DNA of 64,000 nucleotides. It comes from Robertmurraya sp. FSL R5-0851. Lineage in GTDB: Bacteria; Bacillota; Bacilli; Bacillales; Cytobacillaceae. The number at the start of each line of letters is the position of its first letter. Within the stretch, counting starts at the first letter, position 1. The position numbers and the translations under genes were made by a program. Of the stretch, positions 12,066 to 64,000 are shown piece after piece. Location of the stretch: the NCBI RefSeq assembly GCF_038002965.1, contig NZ_JBBOOE010000001.1, positions 2,461,001 through 2,525,000 of the forward strand, given 5' to 3'. A model generated the notes under the pieces. That model ran no database searches. It had not been told where the DNA came from and saw nothing but the letters and a program-made list of their open reading frames with translations.

Positions 12066-12869
12066 CTACTTCTCTCTCCACCAAGGAGTTCTCGGACATT
12101 CATCCTTACCTATGCAAACGGTTTCCCCAATTTTCGGAGTCGCAATGCTCACCTGATGCTGAGATGCCGCTTTCGTAACCCGTTCAACCGGATCAATCCA
12201 GGAATGGAAAGCTAGGGTAAAAGCTCCCCAATGAACAGGAATTAACAAATGACCACGAACATCAAGATGCGCTTGTACCGTTTCTTCCGGTAGCATATGT
12301 ATATGGGACCAACGCTCATCATATTGACCGCATTCCATTAAAGTTACGTCAAAAGGTCCATAGGTTTCACCGATTTCCTTGAAGTGTGGACCATAACCGC
12401 TGTCGCCACTGCAGTATACCTTTGTATCACGACCTGCTATCACCCATGAACATCACAAAGTAGAATTTCGATTAAATAAACCTCTTCCGGAAAAATGTCT
12501 TGCAGGCATACAAGCTAGGGTGAGATTCTCAAGCTGAACTTCATCGCCCCACGCATGCTCAGTAATTTTTTCTGAAGGAACACCCCAATTCATTAAACAT
12601 CGTCGTACCCCTAACGGTACAATAAATCTTTGTGTCTTATCTTTTAATCTACGAATAGATGAATAATCCAGATGATCATAGTGGTCATGTGAAATTACAA
12701 TCGCATCGATACTGGGGAACGCTTCAGGTTCAATAAGCAAGTTTGTGCGGAACCGTTTCGTACCAGCCCATGAAACTGGTGACGGAGGTCCAAAAGTTAT
12801 GAATCTATTTGCCAAGAACAGACTAGCGACTACTATCAAAAAGATGACCACTGTTTTTACATACTTCAA
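12066..12869 (-). pseudogene. MBL-fold metallohydrolase interrupted by one in-frame TGA
   Basis: Two consecutive frames are really one: codons before 12455 and after 12453 are in the same frame, separated by a single TGA at 12453-12455. Homologues normally have Trp there (NSTLW.SWV), so the likely change is TGG to TGA. The product would be about 267 residues: an N-terminal signal anchor (MKYVKTVVIFLIVVASLFLA), the metal motif HDHYDHLD near residue 61, PARHFSGRG, a GDSGYGPHF segment and PVHWGAF. The layout is that of UlaG/NAPE-PLD-like hydrolases. Either half alone lacks metal ligands, so the gene is probably inactive unless the stop is read through. Confidence 0.85.
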
Positions 12870-12998
12870 TAAAAATCTCCTCCCTAAAAATATTCATTTC
12901 TACTACTGACGTAAAAGGTGGCTGAAGGGTTACTTTTCTTGCTTCATGGTCCTACATCATTTAAAGTGGAATTAATTAATTCAGTTGGAGGATATGTT

Positions 12999-13991
12999 TT
13001 GAAACTCAGTGTTCTTGATCAATCAGTTATCAGTAAAGGAGCAACGGCCCCAACTGCACTACGAAATACCTTGAAACTCGCGCAATTAACCGAGGAATTA
13101 GGGTATACTCGGTTTTGGGTTGCCGAACATCATAATTCAAACGGAATCGCAGGCTCTTCTCCGGAAGTGCTCATTTCTCATATTGCCTCGCGCACAAAAC
13201 AAATAATTGTCGGGTCTGGCGGTGTTTTGCTCCCACAATACAGCCCATATAAAATTGCCGAAAACTTTAAAGTATTAGAAGCCTTATTTCCCAACCGGAT
13301 CGACCTAGGAATCGGCCGGTCTCCAGGTGGTGCTGCAACCACACGAATCGCATTAACAGATGGACTAAGGAAAAGTTTGAATGAATTCCCACGTCAACTC
13401 AGGGATTTGCAAGCCTTTCTGCGTAATGACGTACCTGCCAACCATCCTTATGAGTCTGTGAATGCCTACCCCGTTTCTTCAAGAGTACCTGACATTTGGA
13501 TGCTCGGAATTACACACCGAGGTGCAAGGTTGGCTGCAGAATATGGGACAGCCTTTACGTATGGACATTTCATTACTCCGGTTAACGGACAATCGGCGTT
13601 AAACTTTTATTATGAAAACTTCCAGCCCTCCCCTCTGCTCGAAAAACCAAAAGCAAATGTATGCGTATTCGTGGTTTGTGCATCCACTCAGGAAAAAGCA
13701 GAAGAATTGGCTTTAAGCCAGGACATGTGGCTTTTAGCTATCGAAAAAGGACTGGATACTCAGATTATGTCTATTGAGGAGGCAAAACGAATTCCTCTAA
13801 CAAGTGCAGACATAGTTAAAATCCAAGAAAATCGCAAACGCATGATCATTGGTACACCCCAGAAAGTGAAAGAGGACATACTTAGGTTAAGCGAACGGTA
13901 TCGTACAGATGAATTTATGATTATTAATAATGTTTATATCTTTCAGGATAAAATGGAGACGTATACGTTGTTAGCGGAGGCTTTCCTTTGA
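12999..13991 (+). CDS. LLM-class flavin-dependent oxidoreductase
   Basis: A 330-residue luciferase-like monooxygenase. It starts KLSVLDQSVISKGA and contains RFWVAEHHN near residue 42, GSGGVLLPQYSPYKIAENF, and DLGIGRSPGG. This fits the group of single-component bacterial-luciferase-like proteins such as B. subtilis YceB, which use reduced FMN. TTG at 12999 is taken as the start because GGAGG lies 7 bases upstream; the upstream ATG at 12918 has none. It is divergent from the broken MBL gene. Physiological substrate unknown. Confidence 0.85.
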   Translation: MKLSVLDQSVISKGATAPTALRNTLKLAQLTEELGYTRFWVAEHHNSNGIAGSSPEVLISHIASRTKQIIVGSGGVLLPQYSPYKIAENFKVLEALFPNRIDLGIGRSPGGAATTRIALTDGLRKSLNEFPRQLRDLQAFLRNDVPANHPYESVNAYPVSSRVPDIWMLGITHRGARLAAEYGTAFTYGHFITPVNGQSALNFYYENFQPSPLLEKPKANVCVFVVCASTQEKAEELALSQDMWLLAIEKGLDTQIMSIEEAKRIPLTSADIVKIQENRKRMIIGTPQKVKEDILRLSERYRTDEFMIINNVYIFQDKMETYTLLAEAFL

Positions 13992-14020
13992 TTGTAGTTT
14001 GGATTCGTGGGACTAGGCTG

Positions 14021-14160
14021 ATGTTTAGCTCCCTCATTCCACTAATTCCTGGAAACCACGGGCACTAAATCCAAACTTGGTTCCCCCATTCCACTAATTC
14101 CTGGAAATCTCAGGTCCTAAACGCCAACTTATTCCCATCAACCCACGAAACCCCGGGTAA
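14021..14160. repeat. 52-bp intergenic repeat (about 2.5 copies)
   Basis: CATTCCACTAATTCCTGGAAA starts at 14035 and again at 14087, exactly 52 bases apart, with a third, diverged copy after 14139. The sequence is unrelated to the other repeat families of the window. The rest of the spacer up to 14379 holds nothing recognised except AT-rich DNA. Confidence 0.75.
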
Positions 14161-14379
14161 TAACAATACCCATTTTACTCTAACCATAATTTCCCTACAT
14201 TTTTTTTGCTTTTTTATGTCTACATTTCTTCAATAACGGGTAATGATATATGTCGCGCATGAATAATTAGCCCCTGCGGATTTTGTCGAAAAATATCTTT
14301 TTGTGTATGCAGTTACCTTTGGACTAATGAACTTATCCTATATATACTAATTTAGTAGAATGTTAGAAAGGATTTCCGT

Positions 14380-14694
14380 ATGAATTCGCTACAAAGACTA
14401 GATGATGAACAATTATCAACGATTATAATTCGAGCCATTAAGTTTAACTTAGAAAAAGAGTTTATCCAATTTTTAAAAAATGAGGCGATAAGAAGGTTGA
14501 TGTATTCACAGCATGATCTTATATCAAAGCAAAGTCTTCAAGATGCGCTTGATGTGATTTATTTCAAAAAAGAATTAGAGCTTTTACATGATGACCATTC
14601 GAAATGTACAGATCAAGCGATAAGAGAGCAAATATGGATCGACATTGAACTTTTACAGTCTGTCATTGATTTAGCAACCGAACAGATCAAATAA
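14380..14694 (+). CDS. Extended Sda-like sporulation checkpoint protein
   Basis: Residues 1-42 match the Sda family: LDDEQLSTIIIRAIKFNLEK then EFIQFLKNEAIRR, the helical hairpin that in B. subtilis blocks the sporulation kinases KinA and KinB when replication is disturbed. Classical Sda is about 46-52 residues; this one continues for another ~60 residues with a second helical region (KKELELLHDDHSKC, IWIDIELLQSVIDLATEQIK) that I do not recognise. AAAGGA lies 8 bases before the ATG. A c-di-GMP riboswitch begins only 6 bases after its stop codon. Checkpoint function is inferred from the N-terminus. Confidence 0.68.
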   Translation: MNSLQRLDDEQLSTIIIRAIKFNLEKEFIQFLKNEAIRRLMYSQHDLISKQSLQDALDVIYFKKELELLHDDHSKCTDQAIREQIWIDIELLQSVIDLATEQIK

Positions 14695-14699
14695 CCCCC

Positions 14700-14784
14700 A
14701 TCCTGCAAAGGCAAACCTTATGAAAATAAGAGACGCAAAGCCACGGGCCTAACGCAATCGCTATGGTAGCCGAGCCGCCAGGAA
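14700..14784 (+). promoter_or_regulatory. Cyclic-di-GMP-I (GEMM-I) riboswitch, orphan
   Basis: The signature elements are present in order: GCAAAGGCAAACC, GACGCAAAGCC, ACGGGCCTAA and GGTAGCCGAGCCGCC, the last being the tetraloop-receptor side of the P3 arm. TCCTG (14701-14705) can pair with CAGGA (14779-14783) as P1. It lies directly downstream of the Sda-like gene, and no gene follows on this strand: the next gene is convergent. The class call is by remembered consensus. Confidence 0.82.
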
Positions 14785-14798
14785 ACTTCCTCTTTTTT
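14780..14798 (+). terminator. Short terminator overlapping riboswitch P1
   Basis: AGGA AACT TCCT is followed by CTTTTTT. Its left arm is the same CAGGA that closes P1, so aptamer closure and this hairpin exclude one another; ligand would favour readthrough. Confidence 0.5.
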
Positions 14799-14884
14799 GA
14801 TTACCACTACACTTACTATACCCACTACCAAGCATTGGACAGGTTTTTTTCATATTACAAAATGCACATACTCCCATTTTTTTA

Positions 14885-14935
14885 AAAACAAAAAATCCCT
14901 AACAAGTAGTAAAGTTCCTACTATGATAGGGATTT
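14885..14935 (-). terminator. Intrinsic terminator of aminotransferase gene
   Basis: AAATCCCTA and TAGGGATTT enclose a 25-base loop with internal pairing (AGTAGTAAAG/CCTACT). Ts follow on the minus strand. Confidence 0.7.
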
Positions 14936-14939
14936 GGTA

Positions 14940-16124
14940 TCAATTGGTTTGAGGTTGATAGGTATGTAAAAACTTCTGAATTCTCGTTGCGGCTTCTGCT
15001 AATCTTTCAGAAGGCTGTACTAATGCGATTCGCACGTATCCTTCTCCCCCTGCTCCAAAAGCATCTCCTGGTACAACCGCCACACCCGCGTGTTCAAGTA
15101 ATTCAAAAGCAAACTGGCGAGAGGTCCAACCTTGGGGAATTTTCGTCCATATGAACATCGTTGCCGGAGTAGTTTTCACTTCCCATCCGCCCTGGTTCAG
15201 TCCATGAATTAAAGTATTTCTTCGGTCTTCATATATGTATTTTTGTTCAGCAAGCATTGCAAAGTCAGAAGTTAATACGGCTACAGCTGCTTTTTGGATT
15301 GGTAAAAACACTCCATAATCCATATGTGATTTTAGTGAGGCTAGAATTTGTAATGCCTGAGCATTTCCGACCACATATCCAATTCGGCAGCCAGCCATAT
15401 TAAAGGTCTTCGATAAAGAATTGAATTCAATGCCCACTTCTTTCGCCCCTTCAATAGACATAAAGCTCAATTGAGGATGATCATCAAAAATAAGTTCCGA
15501 ATAAGCGAAATCGTGTACCACCAGAATGTCATACTTCTTCGCAAAAGCTACTAACTTTTCAAAAAAGCTCCTGTCCGCAATGGCAGTCACTGGATTTCCT
15601 GGGTAGCTCAAGATCAACATTTTTGTTTGTGCTAACACCTCTTCCGGTATGTCCTCTAAAATAGGAAGAAAATCATTTTCTTCTAATAAGGGCATTGGAT
15701 ACACGGCTCCGCCCGCAATCGTGACACTCGCCTCGTAAATGGGATAACCTGGATCAGGTACAAGCACATATTCACCCGGATTCACCATCGCCGTTGCCAA
15801 GTGTGAAAGTCCATCCTGTGAACCCATGAGCTGAAGAACTTCATCCCTCGAGTTAAGCTCCACTCCATAACGATTTTTATAAAAATAACTAACCGCTTCA
15901 CTAAACTCAGCCGTTCCTTTTAGCGTATATCCATAATTTGCTGGATCTTTACTATATGTAGCAATTGTATCCATCACCAAAGACGATGGAGGTAAATCAG
16001 GACTACCAACACTTAAATCGATCACATCTTTCCCACTATTCAATAGTTCATGTTTTCGATTGGCTAAGTCTATAAAAATGGAGGTTGTTAGTTTGTCGAT
16101 CTTAGCTGATGCCTTTAATTTCAT
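14940..16124 (-). CDS. Class I/II aminotransferase (LL-DAP aminotransferase-like)
   Basis: A 394-residue PLP-dependent aminotransferase. It shows IDLSVGSPDLPPS near residue 35, LMGSQDGLSHLATAMVNPGE, PDPGYPIYEA, the PLP-contact SYPGNPVTA, VVHDFAYSEL and the Schiff-base lysine in SLSKTFNMAGCRIGY. This arrangement is closest to the LL-diaminopimelate/alanine-type subgroup used by Bacillus. The ATG at 16124 is preceded by AAGGAGA; the frame is open 24 bases further to a TTG that lacks one. Substrate is uncertain. It is monocistronic. Confidence 0.85.
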   Translation of the reverse strand: MKLKASAKIDKLTTSIFIDLANRKHELLNSGKDVIDLSVGSPDLPPSSLVMDTIATYSKDPANYGYTLKGTAEFSEAVSYFYKNRYGVELNSRDEVLQLMGSQDGLSHLATAMVNPGEYVLVPDPGYPIYEASVTIAGGAVYPMPLLEENDFLPILEDIPEEVLAQTKMLILSYPGNPVTAIADRSFFEKLVAFAKKYDILVVHDFAYSELIFDDHPQLSFMSIEGAKEVGIEFNSLSKTFNMAGCRIGYVVGNAQALQILASLKSHMDYGVFLPIQKAAVAVLTSDFAMLAEQKYIYEDRRNTLIHGLNQGGWEVKTTPATMFIWTKIPQGWTSRQFAFELLEHAGVAVVPGDAFGAGGEGYVRIALVQPSERLAEAATRIQKFLHTYQPQTN

Positions 16125-16191
16125 TTGGGTTGTCTCCTTATTGTTCAAAACTATACGACCATTTTAAAATGGTTTGTTTTTTAGTATAGCA

Positions 16192-54890: not shown

Positions 54891-54926
54891 AAATACCTTC
54901 CATCTAAAAGCTTTTGAAAGGTATTT
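54891..54926 (-). terminator. Weak terminator-like hairpin
   Basis: AAATACCTT and AAGGTATTT flank an 18-base loop directly after the GGDEF-EAL stop codon. Confidence 0.45.
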
Positions 54927-57169
54927 TACTCCACTATTTTCTTTCTTAAAAGAACTTCAATCTCCTCTGCCGGAAGTGGCTTACTAAAGAAATACCCTTG
55001 CGCTAAATAGCAGTTATTTTCTTTTAAGAAGGAAAGTTGCTGTTCGTCTTCTACTCCTTCAGCAATGACCTGAAAACGTAACCGATTACCCAATTCAATG
55101 ATTGTTTTTACAATCTCTTCTCCATCCTTATGCTGATTGATTTCATCAATGAAAGATTTATCAATTTTTAACTTATGAATGGGAAAATGTCTTAAGTAGT
55201 TAAGAGAAGAATACCCCGTACCAAAGTCATCAATAGCAAATCTTACCCCGAGTTCTTTAATTTCTTTCATAATGCTCAGTGCTTGATTCACATTGCTAGT
55301 TACACTTTCGGTAATTTCTAGTTCAAGATATCTCGGAGGTAGGTCCGACTCCTCTAGTATCTGATTGACGGATGAAACAAAGTTTTTCTCTCGAAATTGT
55401 AAGGGAGACACATTAACTGATACACTCTCAATCGGTAAACCGAAATCAATCCATTGCTTACACTGAGTACAAGCCGTTTTTAATACCCACTTTCCAATCG
55501 AGAAAATGAGGCCTGTCTCTTCGGCAAGTGGGATAAATTCTGCTGGAGAGATAAAACCATATTTAGGGTGTTGCCAACGGACCAATGCTTCTAATCCAAT
55601 GATTTGATTGGATACAAGGTTTACCTGAGGTTGATAATGAAGGCTCAACTCGTTATTGTTAATAGCATTCCGTAGCCCAGTTTCTAATTCCATTCGCCTT
55701 TGATTACTAAGATTTAGAGAAGAAGTGTAATATTGGTAATTATTCTTTCCATTTTCCTTTGCATTGTACATGGCAATATCTGAATTTTGGATAATCGCTT
55801 CTACATTATCTCCATCTTTTGGGTAGACACTTATTCCTATACTTGTTGAAATGAACATTTGTCGGTCATTGATTACAAATGGGGAAGCTAACGTAAAAAT
55901 GATTTTTTCCGCTATCTCAGACACTCTAGACCGTTTACCAGTTTTTAGGACAATAATAAACTCGTCCCCTCCATAACGAAAGATACTTCCTTCCTCACCT
56001 ATAGAGTTCTTTAGTCTCGTAGCTACCTTCTGTAATAATAAATCCCCAAAACTATGTCCATACGTATCATTGATCATCTTAAACCGATCTAAATCCAAAA
56101 ACATGACAGCAAAGGATTGTCCTATCTTTTCGCTTCTTGTTACTGTTTCGTTTAAATGCTCATACAAAAGATTGCGATTTGCCATGCCGGTTAATGAATC
56201 GTAATATGCTAATAACTGAACTTGTTCTTCTGCTTTTTTCCGTTTTGAAATATCTCTGACTATGACTTGAGTAGCTTCTTCTCCCTCATAGGTCGTTAAA
56301 AACGCCATCATATCCGTATAAATGACTGTACCATCTAACCTTAGGATACGATATTCACTAATTTCAGATATCCCCTTTTTGACTTGCTTCATCTTTTCAA
56401 TAGCCTGGTTTAGGTCCTCTGGATAGATAAAATCTAGCACATCTCTTCCCATGACTTCCTTAGAATGATGAGCCCCTATTAACCTTACGCCAGCTTGGTT
56501 CACGTAAATGATTTTTCTATTTTTATGTATCAAAGTTGTTTCAGGTGAATATTCGACTAGCTTCCGATATCTCTCTTCACTTTCTAATAGATCTCTTTCG
56601 GCTCTGTCACGTTCCGTAATATCTTGAACAATAACGACATACCGGCCTGAATCCTTTTCGTCAGCGATGGACACCCCTTTACCTTCGAGAAGAATGGTTC
56701 TCCCACTTTTATTCTTTATTCTAAATTTTATTGGTACATTTTGATCTTTTAGTATATAGCTGTACCTTAATTTTGTTATCTCTTCTTGGCTGAATATTTC
56801 TTTTACCGTTTTTCCAATGTAATCCTGTGGGTGATAGCCAACAATCGATAGAAGCGATGGAGAAATGTACTCCATTTTTCCATGCTGATCAATCACCAAA
56901 ATTAAATCAGAAGCATTTTCTACAATTAGTCTGTAATAACGCTCATCTTTAATAATATCTTTGATCATTTTTTTTAATAAATTATAGAAGACAAACCCAC
57001 TTAATATGATAAAAAACATGCCTTTTGACGTATTCATCCATTCAGGAAAATTATTTAGGTTTCTTGTGAAAATATAATCGGATAATAAAACCCACAAGCA
57101 GCTAATGGTGATATAAAAAATGACAAAGTGTAATGCTGCTTTCTTTGCTACGCCCCAATCCTTCCACAT
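54926..57169 (-). CDS. Membrane PAS-PAS-GGDEF-EAL cyclic-di-GMP enzyme
   Basis: A 747-residue protein. Two membrane helices (AALHFVIFYITISCLWVLLS; GMFFIILSGFVFYNLL) lead to two PAS domains (ASDLILVIDQHGKMEYISPS; SPETTLIHKNRKIIYVNQAG). A GGDEF domain follows with YGGDEFIIVL intact, then an EAL domain with EALVRWQHP, VSVNVSPLQF and DDFGTGYSSLNYL intact. Both synthesis and hydrolysis of c-di-GMP are therefore possible. ATG 57169 is taken as the start, just before the first helix, with AAGGGAAA rather far upstream; ATG 57271 is an alternative. A c-di-GMP riboswitch lies 40 kb away in this window. Confidence 0.92.
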   Translation of the reverse strand: MWKDWGVAKKAALHFVIFYITISCLWVLLSDYIFTRNLNNFPEWMNTSKGMFFIILSGFVFYNLLKKMIKDIIKDERYYRLIVENASDLILVIDQHGKMEYISPSLLSIVGYHPQDYIGKTVKEIFSQEEITKLRYSYILKDQNVPIKFRIKNKSGRTILLEGKGVSIADEKDSGRYVVIVQDITERDRAERDLLESEERYRKLVEYSPETTLIHKNRKIIYVNQAGVRLIGAHHSKEVMGRDVLDFIYPEDLNQAIEKMKQVKKGISEISEYRILRLDGTVIYTDMMAFLTTYEGEEATQVIVRDISKRKKAEEQVQLLAYYDSLTGMANRNLLYEHLNETVTRSEKIGQSFAVMFLDLDRFKMINDTYGHSFGDLLLQKVATRLKNSIGEEGSIFRYGGDEFIIVLKTGKRSRVSEIAEKIIFTLASPFVINDRQMFISTSIGISVYPKDGDNVEAIIQNSDIAMYNAKENGKNNYQYYTSSLNLSNQRRMELETGLRNAINNNELSLHYQPQVNLVSNQIIGLEALVRWQHPKYGFISPAEFIPLAEETGLIFSIGKWVLKTACTQCKQWIDFGLPIESVSVNVSPLQFREKNFVSSVNQILEESDLPPRYLELEITESVTSNVNQALSIMKEIKELGVRFAIDDFGTGYSSLNYLRHFPIHKLKIDKSFIDEINQHKDGEEIVKTIIELGNRLRFQVIAEGVEDEQQLSFLKENNCYLAQGYFFSKPLPAEEIEVLLRKKIVE

Positions 57170-57475
57170 GCGAACACCATTTCCCTTCACAAATCCGAAA
57201 CGTATTTTTCCTATTATTTGTATTAACTCATTAATAATGCAAAAAACTGGATAAACCTTATACAGGTCCATCCAGCTTCCATCTACTTCATTAAAGATTT
57301 GGCAAGGTCAGTCAAGAGCTTAGCAGCTCTTCTGTAAATGCTTTGCCACTTTTTAATAACAACCATTTTGATATTCCATTAAAGAAACCTGCAGATGGAG
57401 TGTATCCTTCGAACGAACTACTTGACTGCATTTACCTACTATCGATTGTCAATACTATAAGTGGAGGTGAAAATA

Positions 57476-61210: not shown

Positions 61211-62087
61211 AATTGATCTCCTTTAGTACCTTCATGATCGCTGACCAATCTAAATCTCCCCAGCCTTTTTCGATCGCATAACTGTAGTGAGATTGCGCGA
61301 GATTAGCAATTGGCAACAGGGTGGATACCTCATTCGCTGCATCAATCATTAGGTTCACATCCTTTAATCCTAGCTTTAGCTTAAAGCCAGCAGGATCAAA
61401 CTGTTCATTTGTCATCATTTTTCCATAAGTATTATAAACTGGAGATGCAAACAGAGAATTAATAATTTCTAAAAACTGCTTTGGTTCAACTCCATGTTTC
61501 TCTACCATAACCAAGATCTCTGATAAGGACTCTAGCATGGAAACAAGTAAGAAGTTGTTTCCTAGTTTAGCCACATTTGATAAATACCCTTGTTCACCAA
61601 CAATAAAAACATCTTGCCCTAACGATTGAAGGATGGGTTTTACTTTCTTCCTTGCCTCTTCTGGACCTGCAACTATAAAGCGTAAAGCAGCTGCTGCCGC
61701 TGCCTCAGGACGACCTAAAACGGTGGAAGAAATAAAATGTTGACTGGCATTTTCATGGTCAACCGTTAGTTTTTTTGCCAAGTACACACTGATGGTACTG
61801 ATAGACACATGAATGCCTCCTGGTTGTAACCCCGCAAGTATTCCTTCCTCACCAAACACAACGTTCTCCAATGCTGTATCGTCAGAAAGAATAGTAAGTA
61901 CGATATTCGTTTGTCTTGCTGCTTCAGCAGGAGTGTTAGCTATAATGGCTCCTTTTGTGGTTAGGTCATGGCATTTACTTTTCGTCCGATTGTATACTAC
62001 TAATTCATAGCCATTTTTCAAAAGATTTTCAGCCATCGGTAAACCCATATTTCCTAAGCCGATCAATCCAACTTTCAAAGTTTTCAC
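61209..62087 (-). CDS. NAD(P)-dependent beta-hydroxyacid dehydrogenase family protein
   Basis: A 292-residue enzyme of the 3-hydroxyisobutyrate/tartronate semialdehyde reductase family. Rossmann motif VGLIGLGNMGLPMAENLL, family signature region around HVSISTISVYLAKKLT, and the catalytic lysine in LSNVAKLGNNFLLVSML. The reaction is oxidation of a beta-hydroxyacid or reduction of its aldehyde; substrate unknown. Its ATG overlaps the stop of the upstream GGDEF-EAL gene by 4 bases (ATGA), so the two are translated together, an unexpected pairing. Confidence 0.88.
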   Translation of the reverse strand: MKTLKVGLIGLGNMGLPMAENLLKNGYELVVYNRTKSKCHDLTTKGAIIANTPAEAARQTNIVLTILSDDTALENVVFGEEGILAGLQPGGIHVSISTISVYLAKKLTVDHENASQHFISSTVLGRPEAAAAAALRFIVAGPEEARKKVKPILQSLGQDVFIVGEQGYLSNVAKLGNNFLLVSMLESLSEILVMVEKHGVEPKQFLEIINSLFASPVYNTYGKMMTNEQFDPAGFKLKLGLKDVNLMIDAANEVSTLLPIANLAQSHYSYAIEKGWGDLDWSAIMKVLKEIN

Positions 62088-64000
62088 TCCCTTTTAAATT
62101 TATTTACTCTTTCAAATAGTTCCTCGATTTCATTTGAAGATACCGGACGACTGAAATAGTACCCTTGGCCTTCAGAACAGCCTTTTTCTAATAAAAAGTC
62201 GAGTTGTTCCTTCGTCTCAATGCCCTCTGCAATAACATCCATATGTAAATCACGCGCTAATGTAATAACCGCAGAAACGATGGCTGCTTCATTTACATCA
62301 TGTGGAAGAGAGCTGATAAAAGAACGATCAATTTTGATTTTATTTGCACGAAATTGTTTTAAATACGTCATTGAAGCATATCCTGTCCCAAAATCATCAA
62401 TTGACACTTTCACTCCAATTTCTTGAAGCTTGCTAACTGCATTTTGAATTAAATATTCATGCTTACTTAGCACACTTTCTGTAATTTCAATCTCAATTGA
62501 TTCGGATGGTAGATCATATTCTGCTAGAATATCTTCCACTAAACTGGGGATATCATTTAAAACAAATTGTCTCACAGACACATTTACTGCAACAGGTAAA
62601 TGTGCTAGGTTTGTCTCCCTCCACTTCTTTACCTGTAAACATACTTCCCGGAGAACCCATTCTCCTAACGCATCAATAAATCCACTTTCCTCTGCTAATG
62701 GGATAAATGTGTCAGGACTGATGTTCCCCTTCAGTGGATGCTTCCATCTGATGAGTGCTTCTAGACCAGTAAATTTACCTGTTGCCAATTGAATTTTCGG
62801 TTGATATTGTATAAAAAATTGCTCTTGCTTGATTGCTTCACGAAGTTCTCCTTGTAACATAAATAATTCTGTACCGTGCTTCGTGAGGGAATCATTGAAC
62901 ATTTGGATGGATTGTCCATCCTCGCCTTTTACACTATACATCGCAACATCTGCATTTCTAATTAATATGTCCCCTGTATGACCATGAAATGGGTACATAC
63001 TGATCCCAATACTAGCTGATACGTAAAACTCTCTGTCATTTATTATTATCGGTTCTTTTATTTCTTGTAATATTTTTTCTGCCACTGCTTTTGGTTGTTT
63101 CTCAATTTTCATTTTTCTTAAAAGGATGACAAATTCATCACCACCCATACGGGTGACGATCCCTTTCTTCGGGATATTTGAGTTTATCCGCCTTGCTACT
63201 TCACTTAACACCTGATCTCCTACCGCGTGTCCGAAGGTATCATTAATAGGCTTAAATCGGTCTAAATCAATAAACAAAATCGCAAACTCATCTTGTCTAC
63301 TAATTAAACGATCAATAACATCCTTTAAAAATCGGATATTCGGGAGATTTGTTAATGTGTCATGAGATGCCAAGTATTGGATTTCTTTTACCTGATTATC
63401 CCTTTCAATCGCTAATCCAGTTAAATAACTAAATACTTTAAGTAATTCGATTTCATACGACTTTGGTTTTCTTACTTCAGGATGATAGATCGCAAATGTA
63501 CCGAATAATTCTCCTTTTGACGACAGAATGGGAATCGACCAACAAGAATGCAATTGATAGCTCAAAGGGATCGTTTTCCAATTAGACCAAGATGGGTCAG
63601 TTTCAATATCCGAGACAATTGCTATCTCTTTCGTGAAAGCAGCATGTCCACAAGATGCATAGTTCAAACCAACTGGAAACCGGTCGATTTTCTTTAAAAA
63701 TCCATCTGGAAAGCTATGTGAATATCCGTTACGTAACCAATTCTCACTCTCTTCATAAAACATTATCGAGCAAATACTGTTACTAGATAGTACCTCCACA
63801 GCATTCACAATATTTCGAAAAACATCAATTAATGGTTCACCTGACGCAATCATTTGTAAGGCTTTATACTGTTTATCACTAATGGCTTGGTATTTTTCTT
63901 GCTCCGTAATATTTCTACCTACTACGACTAAACTATCTGCATAACCGTTCTCATCATAAAGTGGAATCTTTCTAACATGAAATGTATAGTCATTCCCATC
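62084..64000 (-). CDS. PAS-GAF-GGDEF-EAL cyclic-di-GMP enzyme, partial (runs off right edge)
   Basis: The frame is open to the last base, so the N-terminus is outside. Visible: the end of a PAS domain with its PAC motif (FHVRKIPLYDENGYADSLVVVGRNITEQEK), a GAF domain (SSNSICSIMFYEESENWL, YASCGHAAFTKEIAIVSDIETD), a GGDEF domain with MGGDEFVILL, and an EAL domain with EALIRWKHP, VAVNVSVRQF and DDFGTGYASMTYL. Both active-site motifs are intact. It is the second GGDEF-EAL protein in 10 kb and overlaps the downstream dehydrogenase gene. An internal ATG at 63853 is not the true start. Confidence 0.93.
   Translation of the reverse strand, partial: DGNDYTFHVRKIPLYDENGYADSLVVVGRNITEQEKYQAISDKQYKALQMIASGEPLIDVFRNIVNAVEVLSSNSICSIMFYEESENWLRNGYSHSFPDGFLKKIDRFPVGLNYASCGHAAFTKEIAIVSDIETDPSWSNWKTIPLSYQLHSCWSIPILSSKGELFGTFAIYHPEVRKPKSYEIELLKVFSYLTGLAIERDNQVKEIQYLASHDTLTNLPNIRFLKDVIDRLISRQDEFAILFIDLDRFKPINDTFGHAVGDQVLSEVARRINSNIPKKGIVTRMGGDEFVILLRKMKIEKQPKAVAEKILQEIKEPIIINDREFYVSASIGISMYPFHGHTGDILIRNADVAMYSVKGEDGQSIQMFNDSLTKHGTELFMLQGELREAIKQEQFFIQYQPKIQLATGKFTGLEALIRWKHPLKGNISPDTFIPLAEESGFIDALGEWVLREVCLQVKKWRETNLAHLPVAVNVSVRQFVLNDIPSLVEDILAEYDLPSESIEIEITESVLSKHEYLIQNAVSKLQEIGVKVSIDDFGTGYASMTYLKQFRANKIKIDRSFISSLPHDVNEAAIVSAVITLARDLHMDVIAEGIETKEQLDFLLEKGCSEGQGYYFSRPVSSNEIEELFERVNKFKRE

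Follow-up and report, generated by a model that had tools for sequence, protein, structure and literature searches.

A predicted c-di-GMP-I riboswitch directly behind an sda-like gene in Robertmurraya and its possible function at the message's 3′ end

Bacterial riboswitches are mainly known as devices of 5′ leaders. They are less frequent in 3′ untranslated regions (UTRs), according to review coverage (among PMC7154746 and PMC8079631), and some are described as acting as terminators at the 3′ end of genes (PMC3627812). Among the closest described systems is the vitamin B12 riboswitch Rli39/AspocR of Listeria, which follows one gene and faces a second, convergent one (PMC7154746, PMC8079631); as these accounts present it, Rli39 was initially taken to end the upstream transcript, and subsequent work showed that it governs an antisense RNA (PMC8079631, PMC7154746). 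Listeria LysRS is likewise described as a condition-dependent terminator of its upstream gene (PMC8079631). An S-box riboswitch in the Clostridium acetobutylicum ubiG operon is reported to control a convergent antisense transcript (PMC7154746), and the Bdellovibrio merRNA is presented as a c-di-GMP aptamer without a conserved downstream open reading frame (ORF) (PMC3627812).

We analyzed a 64-kb window (the whole stretch of DNA under study, to which coordinates refer unless a contig or locus is named) from the 5.3-Mb genome of Robertmurraya sp. FSL R5-0851. A c-di-GMP-I (GEMM-I) aptamer, RF01051, occupies 14700 to 14782 on the + strand; its full-length match (model positions 1-87) of 66.3 bits (E = 9e-11) is high against the gathering score of 35, and no other Rfam match in the window reaches its gathering score. 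The stop codon of an sda-like gene lies at 14692-14694, leaving a gap of 5 nt, so that the aptamer starts at the sixth base behind the stop, as a preliminary description of this DNA had stated. With so short a gap, the sda-like gene's own mRNA most likely includes the aptamer. Orthologous aptamers score 66.3, 70.4, and 77.2 bits against the same model. The GAAA tetraloop and the bases G20, A47, and C92 (Vc2 numbering), which we take to be the core positions touching the ligand, are intact by eye and invariant in all four genomes that carry the locus. Judged from its sequence, the element is a member of RF01051 and a predicted binder of c-di-GMP. A promoter just upstream of the aptamer, which the preliminary description had named as a possible sign of an unrelated small RNA, was not seen: a scan of 14000-15000 found no promoter-like site between the start of the sda-like gene and the aptamer.

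The sda-like gene (14380 to 14694, + strand) encodes 104 amino acids, which profile search and alignment divide into an Sda domain (residues 6-42) and a C-terminal part without known family. It had initially been called an Sda-like sporulation checkpoint gene. That name keeps some footing, as the Pfam Sda model (PF08970) does exceed its cut-off over residues 6-42, but the match is borderline (24.2 bits, E = 2.8e-5, barely over the cut-off of 22.6), the protein is more than twice as long as a single-domain Sda of about 46 residues, and four other Sda-domain matches over the cut-off exist in the same genome. A profile of 13 relatives matched the solved Sda 3fyr (E = 4.9e-4, first 40 residues aligned); because an engineered repeat protein scored nearly as well in the same search (E = 8.8e-4, via its later half), such E values against solved structures are modest. 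"Sda" is the NCBI name of some relatives, and an NCBIfam search with the protein gave no match. L24 and F28 are invariant and align with Sda L21 and F25, presumably the kinase-contact residues. Residues 46-104, searched alone, matched nothing in Pfam, and conservation runs up to the C terminus across 13 aligned rows. Small ORFs in two other genera resemble this C-terminal half (L013:1486-1653, 55 aa, 37%; L014:1483-1635, 50 aa, 30%; E about 8e-4) and also gave no Pfam match; in view of these look-alikes, it may constitute a separate small domain. One Sda paralogue match in the genome (C1:634440-634556, L061) contains an internal TAG. Sda matches over the cut-off numbered 30, including the four sda-like genes. 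Of the other 26 loci, 21 were scanned (20 plus L015), and none had a c-di-GMP-I aptamer; by coordinates, no Sda of the own genome other than the sda-like gene lies within 5 kb of one.

We found the sda-like gene in four of five Robertmurraya genomes examined. The genome lacking it is 66% complete, and the aminotransferase that otherwise adjoins the locus was seen there solely as a 43% paralogue. At E 1e-6, the protein had no match in the 188 other genomes of the family (193 searched). All four genomes with the gene carry the aptamer 5 nt behind its stop codon; the pairing that the preliminary description wished to see in close relatives thus recurs in all three congeners with the gene. We counted columns invariant across these four orthologous loci of one genus: 79 of 83 in the aptamer (95%), 234 of 315 in the sda-like gene (74%; 55 of 103 at third codon positions), and 78 of 101 in the 100 nt before the gene. 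Behind the short U-tract that follows the aptamer, 19 of 47 columns are invariant over 45 nt (40%) and 7 of 51 over the next 50 nt (14%). Between the first aptamer base and the fifth U, 92 of 98 columns are unchanged, with four changes in the aptamer and two in the loop of a small hairpin, and this 98-nt conserved unit is flanked by variable sequence on both sides. Four sets of 5′-leader aptamers from the same four genomes are 73-95% invariant. Since the 3′ aptamer matches these sets and exceeds the gene, it appears to be kept like a working aptamer and not like a relic, and its conservation beyond that of the gene suggests a signal acting on the end of that gene's message. No pair in the aptamer or the hairpin has changed on both sides in the four genomes, so the support for pairing is invariance and not covariation. 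The side of the locus from aptamer to aminotransferase is kept, while the upstream neighbor differs among congeners: a luciferase-like monooxygenase (12918-13991) here, a different ORF, on the opposite strand, in the other three (L207-L209). Two adjacent ORFs in the same part of the window (12066-12443 and 12453-12869, − strand) look by eye like two parts of one interrupted metallo-hydrolase-like gene.

To place the locus among its relatives, we surveyed 155 c-di-GMP-I aptamers, comprising 46 over the cut-off from the five genus genomes and 109 from other genera, the latter drawn from part of the best-scoring matches listed. By rough gene calling, only the four sda-like aptamers combine a stop codon within 30 nt upstream with the lack of a same-strand gene behind. 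The rough caller itself reported a same-strand upstream gene ending within 30 nt for 5 of 155: three sda-like loci and two others, each followed on the same strand by a gene, 65 nt away in one and 96 nt in the other; the fourth sda-like locus fell below its threshold and was seen in the genus ORF survey. Within the genus (n = 46), the four sda-like aptamers alone lie 5 nt behind a stop without a credible gene next. The remaining 42 are each followed by an ORF with some ribosome-binding site, less certainly in three where it is 263-310 nt off; the script was designed to seek just such an ORF and is a lenient test. Some 37 of the 155 have no same-strand gene within 400 nt by the rough caller, so further isolated aptamers may exist, although some of the 37 arise because the caller misses small genes such as SinI (G047, G007).

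Sequence, folding, and the four-genome alignment agree on helix P1 of the aptamer, with its 5′ strand UCCUG at 14701-14705 and its 3′ strand CAGGA at 14779-14783 (both + strand). The AGGA of the 3′ strand also belongs to a small hairpin, AGGA-AACU-UCCU, which runs into C and six U (14780 to 14798, + strand; −2.2 kcal/mol), a candidate weak terminator or expression platform. AGGA (14780-14783) can thus pair either with the 5′ strand of P1 or, through four pairs, with the downstream UCCU (14788-14791). The preliminary description had reported a P1 strand shared with a short terminator. The sharing of AGGA is borne out, and hairpin and U-tract are kept in four of four genomes, with the arms and the first five U invariant and two of the four loop positions variable; the terminator, however, is much weaker than had been assumed (−1.9 to −2.9 kcal/mol across the four genomes). 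A terminator scan of 14000-15000 with a minimum of 5 pairs did not return this 4-pair hairpin. Comparable sites, a 4-pair hairpin with a U-tract, number 14 on both strands of the window (0.11 per kb per strand). Because it is rare in the window, kept in all four genomes, and held in its arms while its loop changes, the hairpin is unlikely to stand behind the aptamer by chance. Hairpins of −14.9 to −18.9 kcal/mol lie within 80 nt of 13 of the 42 other genus aptamers.

We tentatively favor a reading in which a c-di-GMP riboswitch in the 3′ UTR of the sda-like mRNA controls the 3′ end of that message, and so read-through or stability. Transcription would start at a sigma-A-like promoter (14320 to 14348, + strand), which is conserved in all four genomes; the promoter scan returned 3 sites where 3.5 were expected and alone proves nothing. 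Without c-di-GMP, AGGA would pair with the downstream UCCU, the polymerase would tend to halt at the U-tract, leaving an mRNA that ends right behind the sda-like gene. With c-di-GMP, P1 would lock AGGA and transcription would continue toward the convergent aminotransferase gene, yielding a longer 3′ end that is perhaps differently stable and perhaps antisense. In effect, c-di-GMP would determine how much mRNA for a putative sporulation-kinase inhibitor is present, or which form it takes. P1 and hairpin are mutually exclusive, so by the usual logic the ligand would oppose the hairpin. As an expression platform, the arrangement has an invariant AGGA common to P1 and hairpin, while the hairpin is weak and P1 is favored even without ligand: the P1 fold beats the hairpin fold by 3.0, 0.7, 2.2, and 2.2 kcal/mol in the four genomes, and the predicted minimum-energy fold is P1-closed in each. 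The 5′ strand of P1 lies 7-11 nt past the stop codon, where a ribosome at that codon would cover it, so translation may favor the hairpin. The weak hairpin and the preference for P1 nevertheless weigh against control of the 3′ end, as does a stronger hairpin about 110 nt further on in three of the four genomes. The earlier proposal that the aptamer may set the 3′ end or stability of the sda-like mRNA remains well motivated as a role at the 3′ end, with a terminator far weaker than it supposed.

We tried two ways in which the 3′ end might reach back to the 5′ end and rejected both. In icaR, a CU-rich 3′ tail masks the Shine-Dalgarno site; here the gene's own pair reaches −9.3 kcal/mol, and 72 of 116 control 5′ regions bind equally well or better. 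A duplex between the 5′ UTR and the sequence past the U-tract fared no better: among 300 shuffles for each of the four genomes, 278, 96, 88, and 54 paired at least as stably as the native sequences.

The preliminary description was right that no + strand gene follows the aptamer and that the next gene is convergent. None of the ORFs compared behind it (at least 12 aa) is common to the four genomes, and a class I/II aminotransferase gene (14940 to 16148, − strand; PF00155, 196 bits) is the convergent neighbor in all four genomes with the sda-like gene. Between the convergent genes we noted by eye a hairpin, AAATCCCT/AGGGATTT (14893 to 14935), possibly the aminotransferase terminator on the − strand and possibly also a stronger stop for the + transcript. 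Among + strand hairpins past the aptamer it scores best here (−15.1 kcal/mol), in G001 (−14.3), and in G004 (−17.6); in G003 it was not found. This strong intergenic hairpin could, in the three genomes that have it, mark the actual transcript end with or without ligand. If so, the aptamer would lie inside the 3′ UTR, and termination would be independent of the ligand, with the c-di-GMP-bound fold shielding the mRNA 3′ end from 3′-to-5′ decay. We regard this first alternative as unlikely. It agrees with the P1-closed minimum-energy fold in four of four genomes and with a small hairpin too weak to make a good 3′ block, yet taken alone it leaves the invariant hairpin arms and U-tract unexplained, except as a plain terminator.

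The same intergenic hairpin, at −14.3 to −17.6 kcal/mol, stands in the way of a second and less probable alternative, by analogy with B12 and AspocR in Listeria, in which the target would be the convergent aminotransferase gene and c-di-GMP would control an antisense extension of the sda-like transcript. Antisense transcription into this gene had also been raised as a possibility in the preliminary description. The geometry equals that described for Rli39/pocR (PMC7154746; PMC8079631), and the convergent neighbor is the same in all four genomes, but such synteny is expected anyway among close relatives, and the region from the U-tract to the aminotransferase gene is poorly conserved.

More doubtful still is that the aptamer is a functionless relic or copy of another aptamer, or the leader of a small unrecognized gene. 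The copies closest to it in the genus are indeed other aptamers, mostly in 5′ leaders (81-84% over 64-73 nt), and the rough gene caller flags other aptamers without an obvious gene; conservation across the genus beyond that of the gene argues against a relic, and the lack of an ORF common to the four genomes argues against an unrecognized gene. We rejected a leader of a small ORF, as the ORFs of at least 12 aa behind the aptamer differ among genomes: a TTG-started frame (51 and 49 aa) is present in two and absent from the other two, an ATG inside the aptamer is common to three with its frame stopping early in G003, and G003 has a single ORF behind the aptamer (19 aa, at +181). Also rejected was a leader whose gene was lost. 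Ten aminotransferase loci of sister genera (L210-L219; six at 67-78% identity and four at 49-51%, each searched with 1.5-kb flanks) contain no c-di-GMP-I, so in those loci the aptamer does not turn up leading some neighbor that was lost here; by eye, no sda-like-looking ORF occurs in the 1.5 kb behind these ten genes. Least probable of all is that the aptamer sits within an abundant RNA soaking up c-di-GMP, as proposed for the Bdellovibrio merRNA, or within a cut-off small RNA of other role: it shares with merRNA as described (PMC3627812) the lack of a common downstream ORF, but it lies 5 nt behind a gene with its own promoter-like site, nothing in the sequence signals very high expression, and a P1 shared with a hairpin would not be needed. 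In our ranking, control of the 3′ end thus comes first, followed by altered stability, antisense control, a relic or unrecognized gene, and a sponge or small RNA.

We next considered the regulatory setting. Upstream of the sda-like promoter lies a Spo0A-box-like site, TTTGTCGAAAA (14282 to 14292, + strand; 1 match in the window, 0.15 expected), whose pattern we take to be the Spo0A consensus. It is kept in four of four genomes, where the entire surrounding stretch is conserved, and its 7-mer TGTCGAA alone occurs at chance density in the window (8 found, 8.45 expected). Elsewhere in the genus, a SinI-like anti-repressor gene is led by a c-di-GMP-I aptamer in five of five genomes (own C1:725843-725936 [L005, L105], L080, L071, L090, and L085), the own copy having c-di-GMP-I-GGC as its best Rfam model. 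TGTCGAA precedes this aptamer by 118-119 nt in all five, and the Pfam SinI model matches the three peptides searched (the own and two of G003; 40.7-42.3 bits). A SinI-like motif follows 12 of the 155 surveyed aptamers, six of them outside the genus. This pattern supports, without proving, an RNA-based input from c-di-GMP to the Spo0A network in this genus. The two GGDEF-EAL proteins that the preliminary description placed in the window are both real by profile search, one with PAS (54926-57271) and one with GAF (62084-63853), both on the − strand. Just past the window end, another c-di-GMP-I aptamer (own C1:2525395-2525482; L001, L104; 85 bits) has a strong hairpin and U-tract and leads a 729-aa ORF whose start looks PAS-sensor-like by eye. 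The wider proposal, in which a 3′-UTR aptamer would act backwards on one monocistronic mRNA and tie c-di-GMP directly to a sporulation-phosphorelay inhibitor, in a genus that has another c-di-GMP riboswitch leading a SinI-like biofilm anti-repressor gene, is one we advance with reserve, as conceivable and somewhat doubtful. If true, it would mean that c-di-GMP reaches the sporulation decision directly through RNA, and a conserved 3′-UTR aptamer without a following gene would offer an uncluttered natural setting in which to study whether metabolites can act on a message by way of its 3′ tail.

Neither a c-di-GMP riboswitch that is placed in a 3′ UTR or connected with Sda nor an RNA link joining riboswitch, Sda, sporulation, and c-di-GMP appears in the titles and opening abstract lines of the literature matches listed, a set with subscription journals mostly outside its scope. 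The protein resembles Sda (PF08970; 1pv0, 3fyr, 3d36), an inhibitor of sporulation kinase, over its first 40 residues, and differs from that protein of about 46 residues in its length of 104, its borderline score, and an extra C-terminal part of unassigned kind. The aptamer resembles c-di-GMP-I riboswitches (RF01051) in its full-length match, tetraloop, and ligand-contact core; unlike those of 5′ leaders, it lies behind a stop codon, does not sit before a same-strand gene that it controls, has no gene next, and has a weak expression platform. As the sources cited at the outset describe them, merRNA, a 445-nt transcript made in massive amounts and proposed as a store of c-di-GMP, resembles the sda-like aptamer in lacking a conserved downstream ORF; the ubiG S-box has SAM as its ligand and its own promoter and, unlike the sda-like aptamer, is not described there as part of an mRNA 3′ end; and LysRS also controls a downstream lysine transporter, whereas the sda-like aptamer has no downstream gene. 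Rli39/AspocR, on the same accounts, is likewise a riboswitch behind a gene and facing a convergent one, and differs in aptamer class; the sda-like aptamer lies just 5 nt past the stop codon. The placement behind a gene is therefore not that of the RF01051 family, and riboswitches behind genes are already known from the descriptions of Rli39 and LysRS.
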